A program made the position numbers and the translations under genes. Below the pieces are notes generated by a model. The model ran no database searches, had not been told where the DNA came from, and worked only from the letters and a program-made list of their open reading frames with translations. From assembly GCA_903934795.1 (NCBI GenBank), contig CAIZPE010000165.1:1-49747 (forward strand): 49,747 nucleotides of DNA, written 5' to 3'. Shown piece by piece: positions 10,917-20,034 of this stretch. How positions within the stretch are numbered: position 1 is the stretch's first letter; each line of letters begins with the position of its first letter. This DNA comes from an uncultured bacterium (GTDB lineage Bacteria > Pseudomonadota > Gammaproteobacteria > Burkholderiales > Burkholderiaceae_E).

Positions 10917-11924
10917 TCAGTCGAGCTGGATGTTCTCGCGCCTGATGATGTCGGCCCAGCCAGCCGATTCGATGCGGATGCGCTCGCTGAACTCCTTCGG
11001 GCCGAGGAGATCGACATCGCCGTGGGGCAGCAGCTGTCGCACCAGATTGGGGTCGTCCTTGATCGACGCCAGCGCGGCATGGAGCCTGTCGATGATGGCG
11101 GGCGGGGTCTGCGCGGGCGCGAACAGGCCCAGCCAGAAGGTGACATCGATCTGCGGGTAGCCGGCTTCCTTCAGGGTGGGCACCTCGGGAAGGTCGCGCC
11201 AGCGCCGCGTGCCGGTGACCGCGAGCGCGGTGAGCTTGCCGGCCTTGATGGGCGGCACCGCCAGCGGGGTGTCGATGAAGGCATCGACCTCCTTGGCGAG
11301 CACGCCGAGCTGGGAGGCCACCGCGCTCTTGTAGAGCACCTCGTTGGCCTTGATGCCGGCGTGATTGTTCAGGATGCGGAAGGTCAGGCCGGTGATGTTG
11401 CCGGGGCCGGCCGCCGCATAGCTGAGCGCGCCCGGCCGGGCCCTGGCCCAGCTCACCAGCTCGGCCACCGTGCGGATGGGCCCGGTGCGTTCGTTGGTCG
11501 GGTTGACCACGAGGATCAGCGGCGCCGAGGTCACGGGCGTGACCGGCACGAAGTCCGCCATGCTGTAGCCGAGCTTGCGGTACAGATGCGGATTGACCGT
11601 CATGCTGCTGGAGTTGGTGACCAGCAGGGTGTAGCCGTCAGGGGCGGCGCGGGCCACCTCGGTGGCACCGATGACGCCGTTGGCGCCGGGCTTGTTGATG
11701 ACCACCACCGGCTGGCCGAGGCGGGTGCGCAGCTGTTCAGCCGCCACCCGCGCGATGGTGTCGGTGGTGGTGCCCGCGGCAAAGCCCACCAGGATCTGGA
11801 TGGGCTTGCTCGGGAATGACTGCGCCGGCGACTGCGCGGCGACAGGCGACGCGGCGACGGCGGCACCCGCGGCAAGCAGCCCGCCGAGCATCCGCCGCCG
11901 CCCGGAGGGGGCGGCGGGTTTCAT
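10917..11924 (-). CDS. Tripartite tricarboxylate transporter (Bug-type) periplasmic binding protein
   Basis: The product has 335 residues from the ATG at 11924. Its N-terminus carries RRR, a hydrophobic stretch and an AQS cleavage region, a possible Tat or Sec signal. The mature start FPSKPIQILVGFAAGTTTDTIAR, the PGANGVIGATEVARAAPDGYTLL block and a C-terminal VPTLKEAGYP segment are diagnostic of Bug receptors, which bind carboxylates or small organic acids in the periplasm. No TctA/TctB membrane partners are near, as is common for these expanded families in Burkholderiales. It begins 16 bases after the selenoprotein stop, so the selenoprotein unit and this receptor are probably one transcript. 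Confidence 0.9.
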   Translation of the reverse strand: MKPAAPSGRRRMLGGLLAAGAAVAASPVAAQSPAQSFPSKPIQILVGFAAGTTTDTIARVAAEQLRTRLGQPVVVINKPGANGVIGATEVARAAPDGYTLLVTNSSSMTVNPHLYRKLGYSMADFVPVTPVTSAPLILVVNPTNERTGPIRTVAELVSWARARPGALSYAAAGPGNITGLTFRILNNHAGIKANEVLYKSAVASQLGVLAKEVDAFIDTPLAVPPIKAGKLTALAVTGTRRWRDLPEVPTLKEAGYPQIDVTFWLGLFAPAQTPPAIIDRLHAALASIKDDPNLVRQLLPHGDVDLLGPKEFSERIRIESAGWADIIRRENIQLD

Positions 11925-11940: not shown

Positions 11941-12462
11941 TCAGGCCTTCTTCTTCACCAGGAGGGCCAGGATGGCCTCGAGGTGGTCGTCGGCCATCTT
12001 GCGCATTTCTTCATCGGTGCGGTCCTGGACCGGATGCGGCACGAACACATACGCCGGATCGGTGCCCAGGGCCTTGGACTGAACCGCGGCCGCATCGATG
12101 AACTCGGTGGTGGCCACCCCCACGCTGGGGATGCCGCTGGCTTCGAGATCTGCGAGGTCATGCGTACAGCACGACGTGCAGGAGCCTCAGTCAGCCAGAC
12201 CTTCGATGACCACATTGACCTCGCCCACGATCTGATGCCGCAGGGGCACCGGCGCGGGCTTGGCCACGGTGGGCTTCATGTAACGCCGCACCGCCACGCC
12301 ACGCTGCGTGAGCAGCGACTCGAGGCGATCAAGGAAGACATCGCCACGCGGCTTGGAGATGTCGAGCAGGCCCACGGTGAGGCCCTGCAACTGCTCGGGC
12401 CGCGCCAGGCGCGGTCGAGACGAGGCCGACTGTTCGGCAGTCGGGTCGAGGATGACGGTCAC
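11941..12462 (-). CDS. UGSC-motif selenoprotein (in-frame TGA read as selenocysteine)
   Basis: From a GTG at 12462 the frame runs to 11941 with a single TGA at 12187-12189, giving 173 residues with Sec at 92. The context is Asp-91, Sec-92, Gly, Ser, Cys-95, Thr, Ser, Cys-98, Cys-99, i.e. a UxxC redox motif plus a Cys pair. Protein-like sequence continues smoothly on both sides: GLLDISKPRGDVFLDRLESL before, VGVATTEFIDAAAVQSKALG after. A SECIS-like hairpin follows the TGA. GGGAGGTG precedes the start, and the GTGA overlap with the upstream gene implies coupled translation. The protein fits the uncharacterised group known by its UGSC motif; the reaction is unknown, but a thiol/selenol redox step is likely. 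Without a selenocysteine system in the genome the TGA would be a nonsense codon. Confidence 0.85.
12150..12181 (-). promoter_or_regulatory. Bacterial SECIS-like hairpin
   Basis: In the RNA sense, CUGC (12181-12178) pairs with GCAG (12153-12150). After a small internal loop (AC/CUC), GUCGUGC (12175-12169) pairs with GCAUGAC (12163-12157), closing a UGUAC apical loop. The loop has G at its second position followed by U, and begins 18 nt after the UGA. Both match the known constraints for SelB-recognised bacterial SECIS elements (apical G/U, about 16-37 nt from the codon). One pair is a G-U wobble. Pairing was done by eye. Confidence 0.72.
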
Positions 12463-13910
12463 GATTTCACCTCCCTGTTGACGGGTACGGATCCGGCGAA
12501 ACCGCCGGAGGTCCATCCCCCGATGATGCCCGAGAACATGCCGGCACCACCGCCGGCACGCACGATCAGCAGCCCGCCATTGCGCAGCTTGTTGCGCGAG
12601 GCGCCGCCCGCCGTGGCGGGCAGGCCTTCATCGATGCCCTTGGCGCCACGCACCAGCTCGGCGATGGGCACCTCGCAGAGCCGGTACAGCTCCTCGAGCA
12701 GGCGGGCCTTGCTCCAGCCGGCGGCACGGAAGGTGCGCTCATGCTCGGGGCTGACCACCAGCATGGCATCGCAGGCCGGCGCGAGCTTGACGTTGTGCAG
12801 CACCTTGAGCGACTCGGCAAAGCTGCGGGCGAGGCTCTCAGGGGTGCGCGATTTCTGGTCGACCACGCCCTGCAGGCCATAGCCGGCGAAGACCGTGACC
12901 GCCGACACGCCGCGGGCCACGCCGAAATCGGCCGACAGCGGCTCCCAGCAGGAGCCTTCCTCGTCTTCGGCGAAGCAGTAGGTGTACTTGCCGGGATTGC
13001 CCAGCGTGGCGCGGTCGACCTCCTGGGGCCGGCCGCCGCCGACATTGCGGATGACCAGCTGCAGCGCGCGGCCGATGGTGGCGTTGGCGCGGTTGCCCTG
13101 GCCCAGCGCATTGCCGCGCGCGTTCATGCCGATCTGGCGGCGTACCGGGCCGTTGACCACCACCACCGGCCCCACGAACATGGTGGTGGCCAGCACCCCG
13201 TGCCATGAGAAGGCGGGGTCGAGCGCAGCCTCGACCGCGGCCAGCACCACCGGCAGGTACTCGGGCTTGCAGCCGGCCATGACGGCGTTGATGGCCACCT
13301 TCTCGACGGTGAGCGGCACCAGGTTGGGCGGGCACAGGCCGAGCAGCTCCTGGGGGTCGCGGGTGGTGCCGCCGAGCATGCGCAGCACACGCTTCTGGGT
13401 GGGCGGCACCACCGGCAGGCCGTCGGTCCAGCCGCGCTCGAAGATGGCCTCGATCTCGTCTTCATCGTCACCGAAGCTCACCTGCCGGGCGGTGAGGCCG
13501 GTCTGGCCGAAGCGGATGCGCAGGTCTTCGAGCTTGCCCGGCTCGACATTGAGCGCGCCGCAGCCCGGACGCAGCGCGGGCAGGCCGGCGCCCAGGCCGG
13601 CCGAGCCGCTGACCCGCTCCCACTCGGCGCGGTCCCAGCCGAAGGTGCGGGCGGTCTCAGCGCCGCCACTGCGGCGGATGAGGGTGGGCACGATCTCGAT
13701 GCCGAGCTGATGGGAGACATCGAGCCCGGTGTCGTCGAGCCGGCCGGCGATGGAGGCCGGAAAGCCGGGGTCGTCCTGGGTGTAGACGGCGAGCGCGCCA
13801 GCGGCGGCAAGCTGGGCGAGCACCGGCTCGATGAGCTCGCAGGTGGGACAGTCGCGCTTGACCACGGCCACGAGGCCATCGGCGGGCAGGCTCACCACGG
13901 GTGCGGTCAT
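12459..13910 (-). CDS. Thioredoxin-like domain fused to a large domain of unknown function; partner of the selenoprotein
   Basis: The product has 483 residues from the ATG at 13910 (GGAG 6 bases upstream). Residues 1-90 look like a thioredoxin fold: strand LVAVVKRD, redox motif Cys21-Pro-Thr-Cys24 and a cis-Pro in IVPT (Pro-75). From about 150 a second domain begins (GWTDGLPVVPPT at 160-171), with conserved-looking blocks GLCPPN (191-196), MAGCKPEYLP (211-220), NARGNALGQGNRANATIGRA (263-282) and LVVSPEHERT (384-393). I cannot assign this domain. There is no signal peptide, so it is cytosolic. Its stop overlaps the selenoprotein start by 4 bases. Inference: the CPTC domain reduces the Sec/Cys centre of the neighbour, or the large domain is the catalytic partner. 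Confidence 0.75.
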   Translation of the reverse strand: MTAPVVSLPADGLVAVVKRDCPTCELIEPVLAQLAAAGALAVYTQDDPGFPASIAGRLDDTGLDVSHQLGIEIVPTLIRRSGGAETARTFGWDRAEWERVSGSAGLGAGLPALRPGCGALNVEPGKLEDLRIRFGQTGLTARQVSFGDDEDEIEAIFERGWTDGLPVVPPTQKRVLRMLGGTTRDPQELLGLCPPNLVPLTVEKVAINAVMAGCKPEYLPVVLAAVEAALDPAFSWHGVLATTMFVGPVVVVNGPVRRQIGMNARGNALGQGNRANATIGRALQLVIRNVGGGRPQEVDRATLGNPGKYTYCFAEDEEGSCWEPLSADFGVARGVSAVTVFAGYGLQGVVDQKSRTPESLARSFAESLKVLHNVKLAPACDAMLVVSPEHERTFRAAGWSKARLLEELYRLCEVPIAELVRGAKGIDEGLPATAGGASRNKLRNGGLLIVRAGGGAGMFSGIIGGWTSGGFAGSVPVNREVKS

Positions 13911-15301: not shown

Positions 15302-17581
15302 CTAGGGCCGTCCCAGATAGAGGTACAGGGTGGAGCGGCCGCGCTCGCCGAAGCCCAGGCCCAGATAGACCGGGCCGAGCCCGGTGCTCGCCCCCATGAA
15401 GAGGCTGGCACCGGTGTGCCAGCGCGGCTCGGTGAAGGGCACATAGGGCTTCTCCATGCGCCCGGCCTCGAGGGAAGCGCCAAGGTACAGCCCGGTGCCG
15501 AAGGGCCGCGGCAGCGGCATGACCCGGTTGTAGTACATGAGGCGCGCGTACTGCATGGAGGAGCCGAGCAGCTGGTTGATCTGCAGGCCCGACAGGTTGA
15601 GAAAGCCGCCGAGCGTGAACGCGTCGAGCGCGGGCAACTCGCCGCCGGGGCTGGAGCCCACCCGGCCGAGCAGGTTGAAGGTGTGCGGGCCGCGGCTGAA
15701 GGCGCCCTGAGCCAGCGCCGCCCGCCGCGTGTAGCGAAGCTCGCCCCCCAGCATCTCGCGCGCCAGGTAGGCGGCGCTGTCGAGCGCCCAGCCCTGGCGG
15801 GGAAAGTCGAGGGAATCGAGCTGGTCCATGCTCAGCCGCGCGGCAACCCCGCCGTGGCGGTACTTCTCCTCGAGGAGGATGGGCAGACCCACCTGGGTGC
15901 TGTTGCTGCGCCGGCCGGCCACCAGGCCGATGCGGGCATCGAAGAGCGCACTCTGGGCGCCCACCATCAGCTCGGCCTGGTCGTTGCGCACCGAGTAGTC
16001 GGTGACCCGGGTGTCGTTCATGAACAGGCTGAGCGGCCGGCTCTCGGTGCTCAGGCGCGGCAACAGGTACAGGCGGCCATCGGGCGAGAGCGGCTGCATC
16101 AGCTGGGTGAGCAGGCGCTGGGTGCGGCCCACCTGCAGCAGCGAGGTCCACTCGCCGCCCAGGGAGTTGACCCAGGTACGGGTGTGCAGCACCGGCACAT
16201 TGAAGTAGGTGTTCGACTTGGAGTCGACGGCCGCGCCCATGCCGAGCAGCAGATAGTTCGGCCCCAGGCTGCGCTCGCCGGGCTGGATCCAGAGCACACC
16301 GCTGCCCTGCTCGGGAACGATGCGGTAGTTCACCTGCGAGAAGTCGCCGCGGGCCATGAGGGCGGCGATGTCGCGATGCAGGGTCTCGCGGTCGAGCGGC
16401 ACGCCCTCGGCCTGATGGCGCACCTGCGCCTCGACGACCACCGGATTGACGAAGCGGGTGGGGCCGATGCGGATCTGGTCGACGCGCTCCGGGGGCCGGG
16501 CCCAGGCGCGGCGCGCATCGGCGAGCGCCTGGTACTCGGCAGCGGGCACGGCCAGCGCGCGCAGGGCCGGGCCGCGCAGCTGCGCGGCTCGCTCGCCAGA
16601 CGGGATGCCGGCCACACCGCGGCCGAAGTCGGTGGAACCGATGGGGCCGAGGTCAGGGGTGATCAGCAGGTCGCGCCCGTTCAGCTCGGCCAGCGAGCGC
16701 CGGACATTGTCCTCGATGAGGATGTTGACCATCTGCGCGGCCACGCCGATCAGCGACTGCAGTTCGTCCTCGCGCAGCAGCGGGCTGCCGACATCGACGG
16801 CGATGACCACATCGGCGCAGAGCTTGCGCACCACATCCACCGGCAGGTTGCGGCTGAGGCCGCCGTCGACCAGCAGGCGCTCCTGCTCGCGCACCGGCGC
16901 GAAGCCCGAGGGCACCGACATGCTGGCGCGCACGGCGCGCACCAGGCTGCCGCGCTCGAGCACCACCATGTCGCCGCGCACCAGGTCGGTGGCCACGGCG
17001 CGGAAGGGCACGCCGAGCTGGTCGAAGCTGGCGAGCTCGGTGCTCACACCGAGCAGCTCATGCAGCAGCAGCTCCACCTTGTGGCCGGCGCTCAGGCCCG
17101 GCGCGGCGCGCAGGCCGCTGGCATCGACCCCTAGCGTGACGCCGAGCTGGGGCAGGCGCTCGGCCTGCTTGGTCCGGTAGGCCTGCTCGGTGCGCGCGAC
17201 CTCGTCGACGAAGATGTCGCCCCAGTCGACCCGGCGCAGGCGCGCCTCGATCTCGTCGGGCGACAGGCCGGCGGCATAGGCCGCGCCCACCGCCGCGCCC
17301 GCGCTGGTGCCGGCGATGCAGTCGACCGGCACGCGCATCTGCTCGAGCACGCGCAGCACGCCGACATGCGCGAAGCCGCGGGCGCCGCCGCCCGACAGGG
17401 CCAGGCCGATGCGCGGGCGCGCGGACGAGGCGGCGGACGCCGCACCGTCTGACGACGAGGGCTGGCCCCACGCCGCACCCGTGAGGGTGAGGGCGAACAC
17501 GAGGGCAATGGCCCGCGACCGATGCCGGGGCGGCGGGCTGCACGGCACGGTGGCGACTTCCTGGAAGGGCGACGGATTCAT
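15302..17581 (-). CDS. Patatin-like phospholipase with outer-membrane barrel (PlpD-like, type Vd)
   Basis: The product has 759 residues. A signal-peptide-like stretch ([14 protein letters not shown], about 25-40) precedes a patatin domain with the oxyanion motif GGGARG at 64-69, the nucleophile Ser-93 in GTSAG and the catalytic Asp-239 in DGG. After a POTRA-like linker (around 365-430) the last roughly 300 residues alternate polar and hydrophobic strands and end in YLYLGRP, as in surface-antigen/BamA-family 16-strand barrels. Domain order and length match the autotransported phospholipases of type Vd secretion. It probably cleaves phospholipids at or outside the outer membrane. It diverges from the dehydratase gene at 17665. 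Confidence 0.9.
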
Positions 17582-19461: not shown

Positions 19462-20034
19462 ATGAACGCCCTCGCGGCCGACGCCTTCGACGCCGACGTC
19501 GCCATCGTGGGCGCCGGCCCGGTCGGCCTCACGCTGGCCAACAGCCTCGGCGCGCACGGCGTCTCGGTGCGGCTGATCGAACGCCTCGAGGGTCTGATCG
19601 ACTATCCGCGCGCGATCGGGATCGACGACGAATCGCTGCGCACGCTGCAGGGCGTGGGGCTGGCCGATCGGGTGCAGGCGCACATCACGCCCGACCAATG
19701 GATGCGCTTCACCACCGCCGACGGGCGCTGCTTCGCCTCGATCGAGCCGCGCACCGACGAGTTCGGCTGGTCACGGCGCAACGCCTTCATCCAGCCGCAG
19801 GTCGATCGCATCCTGCACGAGGGGCTGGCGCGCTTTCCGGGCGTGCAGGTGCTGTTCGGCCAGGCGCTGGCCGGCTTCACGCAGGACGACGACGGGGTCA
19901 CGCTCGAACTCGAGGCCGGCGAGCCGCAGCATGGCGCGGCCTCCGACGGCTCTGCCGCCCCCGACGGCTCCGCGCCCACCGACGCCGGCCCCGCGCGCCG
20001 CGCGCTGCGCGTTTCCCAGGAGCCCACGTCATGA
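19462..20034 (+). pseudogene. mhpA: Truncated MhpA-like FAD monooxygenase (3-(3-hydroxyphenyl)propionate hydroxylase)
   Basis: Only 190 residues remain of an enzyme that is normally about 550. The N-terminal FAD motif GAGPVGL (17-23), [23 protein letters not shown] and [20 protein letters not shown] match MhpA. Homology fades after about residue 155 into an Ala/Pro/Asp-rich tail, then the frame ends. The second FAD motif (GDAAH region), the substrate domain and the C-terminal domain are all absent. The stop overlaps the next gene's start as ATGA, so the operon structure is kept. The product cannot be a working hydroxylase. Confidence 0.8.

Follow-up and report, generated by a model that had tools for sequence, protein, structure and literature searches.

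A UGSC-family selenoprotein gene and its thioredoxin-bearing partner, a Sec/Cys protein, as a putative two-protein selenium enzyme

Analysis of a 49,747-nucleotide stretch of DNA from an uncultured bacterium of the Burkholderiales (the whole stretch is hereafter called the window) revealed a UGSC-family selenoprotein gene whose in-frame UGA at codon 92 is virtually certain to be read as selenocysteine (Sec), directed by a downstream hairpin and by the genome's own SelA, SelB, SelD and tRNA-Sec. The gene adjoins another one coding for a thioredoxin-bearing partner protein, with which it very likely forms one functional unit, and the partner is itself extremely likely, judging from its relatives, to be a member of a Sec/Cys family in which the cysteine of an RPG-Cys motif interchanges with Sec. 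The window UGSC gene as such is a new member of a known family; what appears to be new, as far as seen in the open literature, is a predicted selenium enzyme of two proteins, the second subunit being a Sec/Cys protein as well. The features of the region are listed in Table 1.

Table 1. Features of the UGSC gene, its partner and the adjacent downstream gene, in window coordinates.
Feature	Position	Strand	Remarks
UGSC-family selenoprotein gene	11941..12462	-	173 aa, GTG start, Sec at codon 92, TGA stop
Sec codon UGA 92	12187..12189	-	readable in 74 of 80 loci: UGA 71, UAG 2, UGC 1
Cys95/Cys98/Cys99 codons	12166..12180	-	complete UxxCxxC(C); Cys95 and Cys98 invariant in the 72-protein alignment A4
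bSECIS-like hairpin	12157..12175	-	7-bp stem, 5-nt loop UGUAC; loop GU invariant in 39 aligned sequences
Partner gene, 483 aa	12459..13910	-	stop overlaps UGSC GTG start (GTGA); adjoins UGSC upstream in 71 of 80 loci
CPTC site (Cys21, Cys24), N-terminal thioredoxin domain	13839..13850	-	profile and fold; both Cys invariant in the 52 proteins of alignment A5
Partner Cys117 codon (TGC, motif RPGCG)	13560..13562	-	UGA here in some relatives
GWTDGLP motif, start of the partner's large unnamed domain	13413..13433	-	alignment A5
Partner Cys214 codon (AGC motif)	13269..13271	-	invariant in A5
TctC-family solute-binding protein, next gene downstream	10917..11891	-	possible substrate link (weak)

The UGSC frame runs on the minus strand from a GTG at 12462-12460 to a stop at 11943-11941, its 173 residues and the stop making 174 codons. 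Its motif, U92-G-S-C95-T-S-C98-C99, contains the U/C-G-S-C signature of the UGSC family, and the protein passes the cut-offs of both family models, NF041046, 'UGSC family (seleno)protein' (151 bits against 125), and PF24696 (146.3 bits against 25). Sequence is conserved on both sides of the UGA in alignment A4, which comprises the window protein and those of 71 of the 80 loci described below. A search with PF24696 of 101 genomes, the window's own and those of relatives, found 49 matches in 22 of them, 47 with exactly one in-frame TGA. An earlier note on this DNA had described a single frame broken only by a TGA at codon 92, with the strand left unnamed, and had foreseen that standard gene calling would split it. 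Both statements hold: called mechanically, the gene is cut at the UGA into a 5' piece (109 aa if begun at an upstream ATG, 91 aa from the GTG) and a 3' piece of 60 aa after that codon. A plus-strand gene at 11941-12462 was also considered and set aside, being the antisense of the UGSC gene.

The window genome (4.18 Mb in 353 contigs, 99.27% complete) contains all four components of the Sec machinery that had been proposed for checking, namely selA (565.5 bits), selB (366.4 bits, neighbours in frame included), selD (308.8 bits) and a tRNA-Sec with UCA anticodon (76.2 bits). It also contains a further SelD-like match, weak at 64.1 bits and below the cut-off (G000 C39:14727-15401).

The hairpin downstream of the UGA has the sequence GUCGUGC-UGUAC-GCAUGAC. 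Its UGUAC loop and stem of seven pairs are as the earlier note had given them, but it starts at the 12th nucleotide after the UGA and not at the 18th. In the predicted fold it is extended by outer stems of 4 and 5 pairs, and the minimum free energy of -18.3 kcal/mol (z -2.21) is equalled or bettered by 3 of 200 shuffles. The whole 49-nt fragments of loci L017 and L040 are unremarkable by energy (z -0.38 and 0.00). Covariation was assessed on 39 of 99 sequences (97 with UGA, including the window as L027, and two with UAG), which were picked by eye for diversity and omit, among others, the fused forms L032-L035, whose stem differs. In this set 95.2% of the 273 stem cells are paired, both-side changes occur in 4 of the 7 pairs, and the covariation score of 0.199 was reached by none of 500 shuffles and none of six slid versions of the hairpin (best slide 0.133). 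The version slid by +3 stands slightly above the hairpin in both-side changes (5 against 4) and further pair types (9 against 8), but pairs only 40.3% of cells. In the two Cys-type UGSC genes examined, L116 and L031, the loop GU is gone and 5 of the 7 stem pairs are left, with the protein motif kept.

For comparison with relatives, a pattern scan matched at least 588 stretches, 582 of which were confirmed, and the best 80 were kept as loci, all from named genomes and fetched through the partner gene. Codon 92 is UGA in 71, UAG in two and UGC in one of the 74 loci, from several phyla, in which it can be read; the motif is cut off or was not found in the other six. Homologues thus carry Sec or Cys codons at this position, the second of the proposed checks, and the recurrence of the TGA in many separate assemblies makes a sequencing error, the objection that had been foreseen, very unlikely. 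The two UAG codons (L059:9674-9676 and L092:9656-9658) belong to Blastococcus and Geodermatophilus, both Geodermatophilaceae, and in both genomes, Candidatus Blastococcus massiliensis and Geodermatophilus obscurus, the tRNA-Sec has a CUA anticodon, so that Sec codon and anticodon change together. UAG-coded UGSC proteins of Geodermatophilaceae are already on record in the accessible text of PMC5330540. The genome of L116, the sole UGC form among the 80 loci, has a single match to the tRNA-Sec model RF01852 at E <= 1e-8 (49.2 bits against a cut-off of 47), which ARAGORN calls tRNA-Ser and which scores better as an ordinary tRNA by Rfam. Genome G062 encodes a Cys-type UGSC protein (L031) despite having a tRNA-Sec, which counts against a simple rule that the codon follows the Sec machinery. 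Family cut-offs, selABD with tRNA-Sec, homologue codons and the covarying hairpin all bear out, by sequence comparison, the earlier assignment as a UGSC-motif selenoprotein. The earlier note had not anticipated the conserved partner, its UGA form or the likeness to glycine reductase selenoprotein B, all described below. Two genomes show an unusual expansion of the family, with 19 UGSC matches in G065 (L179-L197) and six in G071, each listed with one in-frame TGA.

The partner protein consists of a thioredoxin domain with the CPTC site, followed by the RPG-Cys motif and a large unnamed domain. Profile and fold both identify the N-terminal part as thioredoxin, the fold evidence coming from structure searches with the whole partner model that probed the thioredoxin part alone, and this part has the CxxC expected in a thioredoxin fold. 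Alignment A5, made of the window protein and the partners of 51 of the 80 loci with rows picked by hand, shows that Cys21 and Cys24 (CxTC), Cys117 (RPGC) and Cys214 are invariant in the 52 partners, Sec being written as C, and that the partners share a conserved domain of about 350 residues. Searches of these 52 proteins against Pfam and NCBIfam gave only weak matches, of thioredoxin, TraF, TrbB and similar type, in a minority of proteins at E <= 0.01. In a sample of the window's order the partner domain occurs in 42 of 399 genomes at E <= 1e-30.

Several observations link the partner with UGSC. A UGSC gene lies directly downstream on the same strand in 71 of the 80 loci, elsewhere in the locus in five, and is absent from the available sequence of four, in two of them because of a contig end; as the partner was the way to these loci, the figures tell how often a partner has UGSC and not the reverse. 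In the window the two genes overlap by GTGA, which suggests translational coupling. The large domain and UGSC are joined in one chain in relatives such as L034, L035 and L045, and in genome G065 the partner domain stands beside or is fused to 18 of the 19 UGSC copies, on either side. Adjacency, overlap, fusions and the arrangement in G065 together argue for a two-protein unit.

The window's own partner carries Cys, not Sec, at position 117. In three of 80 partners, however, a single in-frame TGA replaces the RPG-Cys codon (L099:5338-5340, L103:8349-8351 and L121:8319-8321), and further UGA partners were found at L148, L150-L154, L211, L215-L222, L224, L226-L229, L231, L232 and L234-L239. Since L211, L217 and L236 are at zero tree distance from L121, L099 and L103, the 31 UGA loci that were read represent 28 distinct ones. 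Across 112 loci, a set containing repeats of the kind of L047 and L042, where the same place is covered twice, this codon is TGC in 87, TGT in 16 and TGA in 9. In the related family f188 the partner was detected at E <= 1e-120 in 43 of 74 genomes and contains one TGA in 38 of the 43 (one also has a TAA); among 31 loci read, PG-U was present in 26 and Cys in five. The sequence itself was thus inspected for 26 of the 38 UGA cases, and the other 12 come from the stop count. All nine Sec-partner genomes tested have a tRNA-Sec over the cut-off. Within a 396-genome sample of the phylum of L121, the partner was detected at E <= 1e-120 in 15 genomes, with a TGA in that of L121 only.

The sequence following the partner UGA is also constrained. 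On average, third positions of codons +5 to +11 are 98% conserved in 25 betaproteobacterial UGA partners against 69% outside, and only one of 258 stretches compared is equally conserved, that being the region itself. This freeze is not seen in 31 Cys partners, mostly of the same order (59%, from 2 scorable codons, against 71% outside). The frozen stretch can fold as CUCG-A-GCC-CGGGGU-GGC-CGAG, and all seven pairs of this hairpin are present in 23 of 27 UGA partners against one of 121 Cys partners, which average 4.0 pairs. The four UGA partners that fall short of the seven-pair consensus register have 6, 5, 5 and 2 pairs; in L121 and L154 a different hairpin occupies roughly this position, as judged in part by eye. 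By energy alone the hairpin does not stand out: in the first nine cases, 26 to 163 of 300 letter shuffles are equally stable. It is more stable in UGA than in Cys forms (p 1e-4), but the GC contents of the two also differ (0.73 against 0.65). Its covariation is weak, 44 of 500 shuffles reaching the score, and the one pair that varies is kept through a double change in L238.

On a tree of 132 partners, built by a quick method from 132 of 148 loci, the Sec/Cys label needs four changes, all forced by starred branches; given the method and the long branch of L121, this count calls for caution. Two Cys forms, L223 and L225, are nested in a Sec clade and retain one and none of the seven hairpin pairs. 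In addition, 23 of the 27 Sec-partner loci hold a UGSC motif with UGA, and such loci would therefore encode two selenoproteins. On these sequence comparisons, the UGA-type partner, which in most of the loci has the frozen hairpin downstream, is probably an undescribed selenoprotein family.

In the structural model of the UGSC protein (pLDDT 92.7, pTM 0.87) helices alternate with five main strands, and Sec92 lies immediately ahead of helix 93-108. Its first PDB matches are TIR, flavodoxin, FMN reductase and flavodiiron proteins, with query TM-scores of about 0.36 to 0.5, and a second structure search adds receiver domains and others. From this model UGSC looks like a one-domain flavodoxin-like rather than thioredoxin-like protein. 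The 2008 paper considered a Trx-like fold 'likely' (PMC2398784, accessible text), and the model obtained here does not point to such a fold, with no thioredoxin among the 50 PDB matches listed for each search, an absence that is not proof. Kinship on the basis of fold alone was considered and dropped: the best match of the second search, 8s7v_H (Z 12.4, rmsd 3.1, 132 residues aligned), was only 1.0 above a designed protein.

Profile comparisons point to the selenoprotein subunits of glycine and related reductases. At E <= 0.01, 41 of the 72 UGSC proteins match GrdF and 40 match GrdB, with a best value of 2.8e-6, 14 match the general selenoprotein B model and five the betaine GrdH; GrdF and GrdB are the commonest matches outside the family itself. 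Residues 81-148 of the window protein align to positions 336-398 of 431 in GrdB, the region that carries the Sec of GrdB. Residues U92, C95 and C98 reproduce the UxxCxxC of GrdB, a motif assigned to it in the accessible text of PMC13188914. Several of the 19 UGSC copies in G065 carry W, G or A at the place of Cys98, so the second cysteine of the motif is not needed in all. The likeness to GrdB, GrdF and GrdH (TIGR01917, NF040794, TIGR01918, NF040795) and PrdB is one of motif and of profile similarity in 40-41 of 72 proteins; the GrdB-type models span 431-435 positions against 173 aa in UGSC, and UGSC scores far below their curated cut-offs, the window protein reaching 18.5 bits against the 602.2 of TIGR01917. 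A PF07355 search gave no match in the window genome at E <= 0.001 and, over 143 genomes, matches in two, both weak and partial. The companion subunits of GrdB are GrdA, GrdC and GrdE; electrons for UGSC, unlike GrdB, would probably come from the partner's thioredoxin domain. A working similar to that of GrdB is plausible on the sequence comparisons, and GrdB-like chemistry is a tentative assignment, put at slightly under even chances.

The reading favoured here, by a modest degree, is that the UGSC selenoprotein is made together with its thioredoxin-bearing partner and that selenium is where the two proteins reduce or cleave a small substrate. Sec would sit at a helix start within UxxCxxC, as in glycine/sarcosine reductase selenoprotein B. 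A small substrate would be held by the partner's GWTDGLP domain and attacked by the UGSC selenolate, after which Cys95 or Cys98 would free the reduced product, leaving an Se-S or S-S bond. Electrons resetting UGSC would then come through the RPG-Cys/Sec site and the CPTC thioredoxin site of the partner. The pair could reductively cleave a bond such as C-N, C-S or C-halogen, or reduce an oxidised group. A bolder and rather speculative version, unlikely to be right in every part, is that of a glycine-reductase-like enzyme in aerobes (aerobic by taxonomy), in which UGSC and the thioredoxin-fused partner could each carry Sec, the partner (RPG-U, then the GWTDGLP domain) would be an undescribed selenoprotein family, and the pairs would have multiplied within genomes for different small organic substrates.

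An alternative of limited likelihood makes UGSC a general thiol or peroxide redox enzyme, of antioxidant, disulfide or sulfoxide type, with a dedicated thioredoxin. The UxxC beside further cysteines, the thioredoxin domain of the partner and statements in the accessible text of PMC2398784 agree with it. No thioredoxin was found among the best 50 PDB matches listed in each of the two UGSC-model searches, an absence which is not proof, and the preference of the profiles for GrdF and GrdB, as well as the conserved domain of about 350 residues in the partner, also speak against a general role, while the 19 UGSC copies of G065, 18 of them with the partner domain, suggest specific substrates.

Around the window gene are genes for three SDR proteins, GST, enoyl-CoA hydratase, TctC, GNAT, patatin-like, IlvD-like, Ribonuc_L-PSP and LigB proteins. 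Neighbour clustering over the 80 loci, many of which are ended early by contig ends, found nothing as constant as the UGSC-partner pair. A cluster identified as selA, by profile of one representative, occurs in 10 of the 80 loci on the partner's strand (five times downstream of UGSC and five upstream of the partner), and selB also in 10. Other recurrent genes, present in 8 to 15 loci, encode acyl-CoA dehydrogenase, thiolase, enoyl-CoA hydratase and flavin reductase; the acyl-CoA dehydrogenase-like cluster occurs in 15 of 80 and thiolase in 8 of 80. These neighbours fit the catabolism of small organic compounds, with neither a single pathway nor a consistent substrate.

TctC-type receptors were considered as a link to the substrate and found weak for this purpose: in G065 they number at least 149 (149 of 386 candidates scored), and only four of the 80 loci have one. 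In the G065 neighbourhoods, where 129 neighbour genes were selected and 70 scanned, TctC accounts for 21 of the 154 genes left after 37 UGSC and partner genes are set aside. Two further observations concern the window itself. A FAD-monooxygenase-like frame at 19462-20034 on the plus strand, assigned to its family by eye, is only 190 aa long, overlaps the start of the LigB gene at 20031 and looks like a deletion-truncated or short form. The tRNA-Ala that ARAGORN places at 17092-17178, also on the plus strand and antisense to the patatin-like gene at 15302-17581, is probably spurious.

A function of the pair in dealing with compounds of metals or metalloids (arsenic, mercury or selenium) is improbable: such roles are proposed for some other selenoproteins, as listed in the accessible text of PMC13188914, but none of the eight neighbour-cluster representatives scanned (one without a match) is so named, nor is any among the best 25 of the 83 neighbourhood families of G065. 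That the gene is no selenoprotein at all, being a pseudogene, an assembly error or a truncated product of 91 residues, is suggested by the stop of mechanical gene calling at the UGA and is scarcely credible given UGA in 71 of 74 readable loci from several phyla, UAG in two with matching tRNA-Sec, conservation on both sides, a covarying hairpin and the full Sec machinery.

UGSC has been a published selenoprotein family since 2008, covered in PMC2398784, PMC9312934, PMC5029168, PMC9402790, PMC7435645, PMC7539508, PMC5330540 and PMC13188914, all cited from their accessible portions. With this family (NF041046/PF24696; PMC2398784, PMC13188914) the window protein agrees in score, motif and Sec codon. 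The earlier observation that the family has a name but no proven reaction agrees with Table 1 of PMC13188914 in its accessible form. The open literature on UGSC, supplements aside, describes in its accessible parts no reaction, no link to GrdB and no Sec in a partner, and no entry among the 119 families tabulated in PMC13188914 fits the partner by name and motif, compared by eye. In the ocean survey of 2008 (PMC2398784, accessible text), the UGSC/Unknown_1 fusion has an extra conserved domain, as have L034, L035 and L045; in the window, by contrast, the partner's large domain is in a separate gene and accompanied by a thioredoxin domain and the RPG-Cys/Sec site. The VPGUxxT thioredoxin-like selenoprotein NF041383 is alike by its name only, as a thioredoxin-like protein with Sec after Pro-Gly; its model is matched by none of the 52 partners in A5 at E <= 0.01, nor by the three UGA forms among them at E <= 1.

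The 2008 survey contained 255 UGSC sequences (PMC2398784), UGSC makes up 8.2% of selenoprotein genes in PMC9402790, as their accessible texts state, and it is among the commonest selenoproteins of aquatic metagenomes. A partner with a thioredoxin domain and a Sec/Cys site, together with the link to GrdB, would make what has been the name of a motif a two-protein enzyme open to testing. With the partner comes a probable additional selenoprotein family, one that ordinary gene calling splits in two, and its nested Sec-to-Cys reversions, accompanied by hairpin loss, may serve as a natural experiment on selenocysteine recoding.
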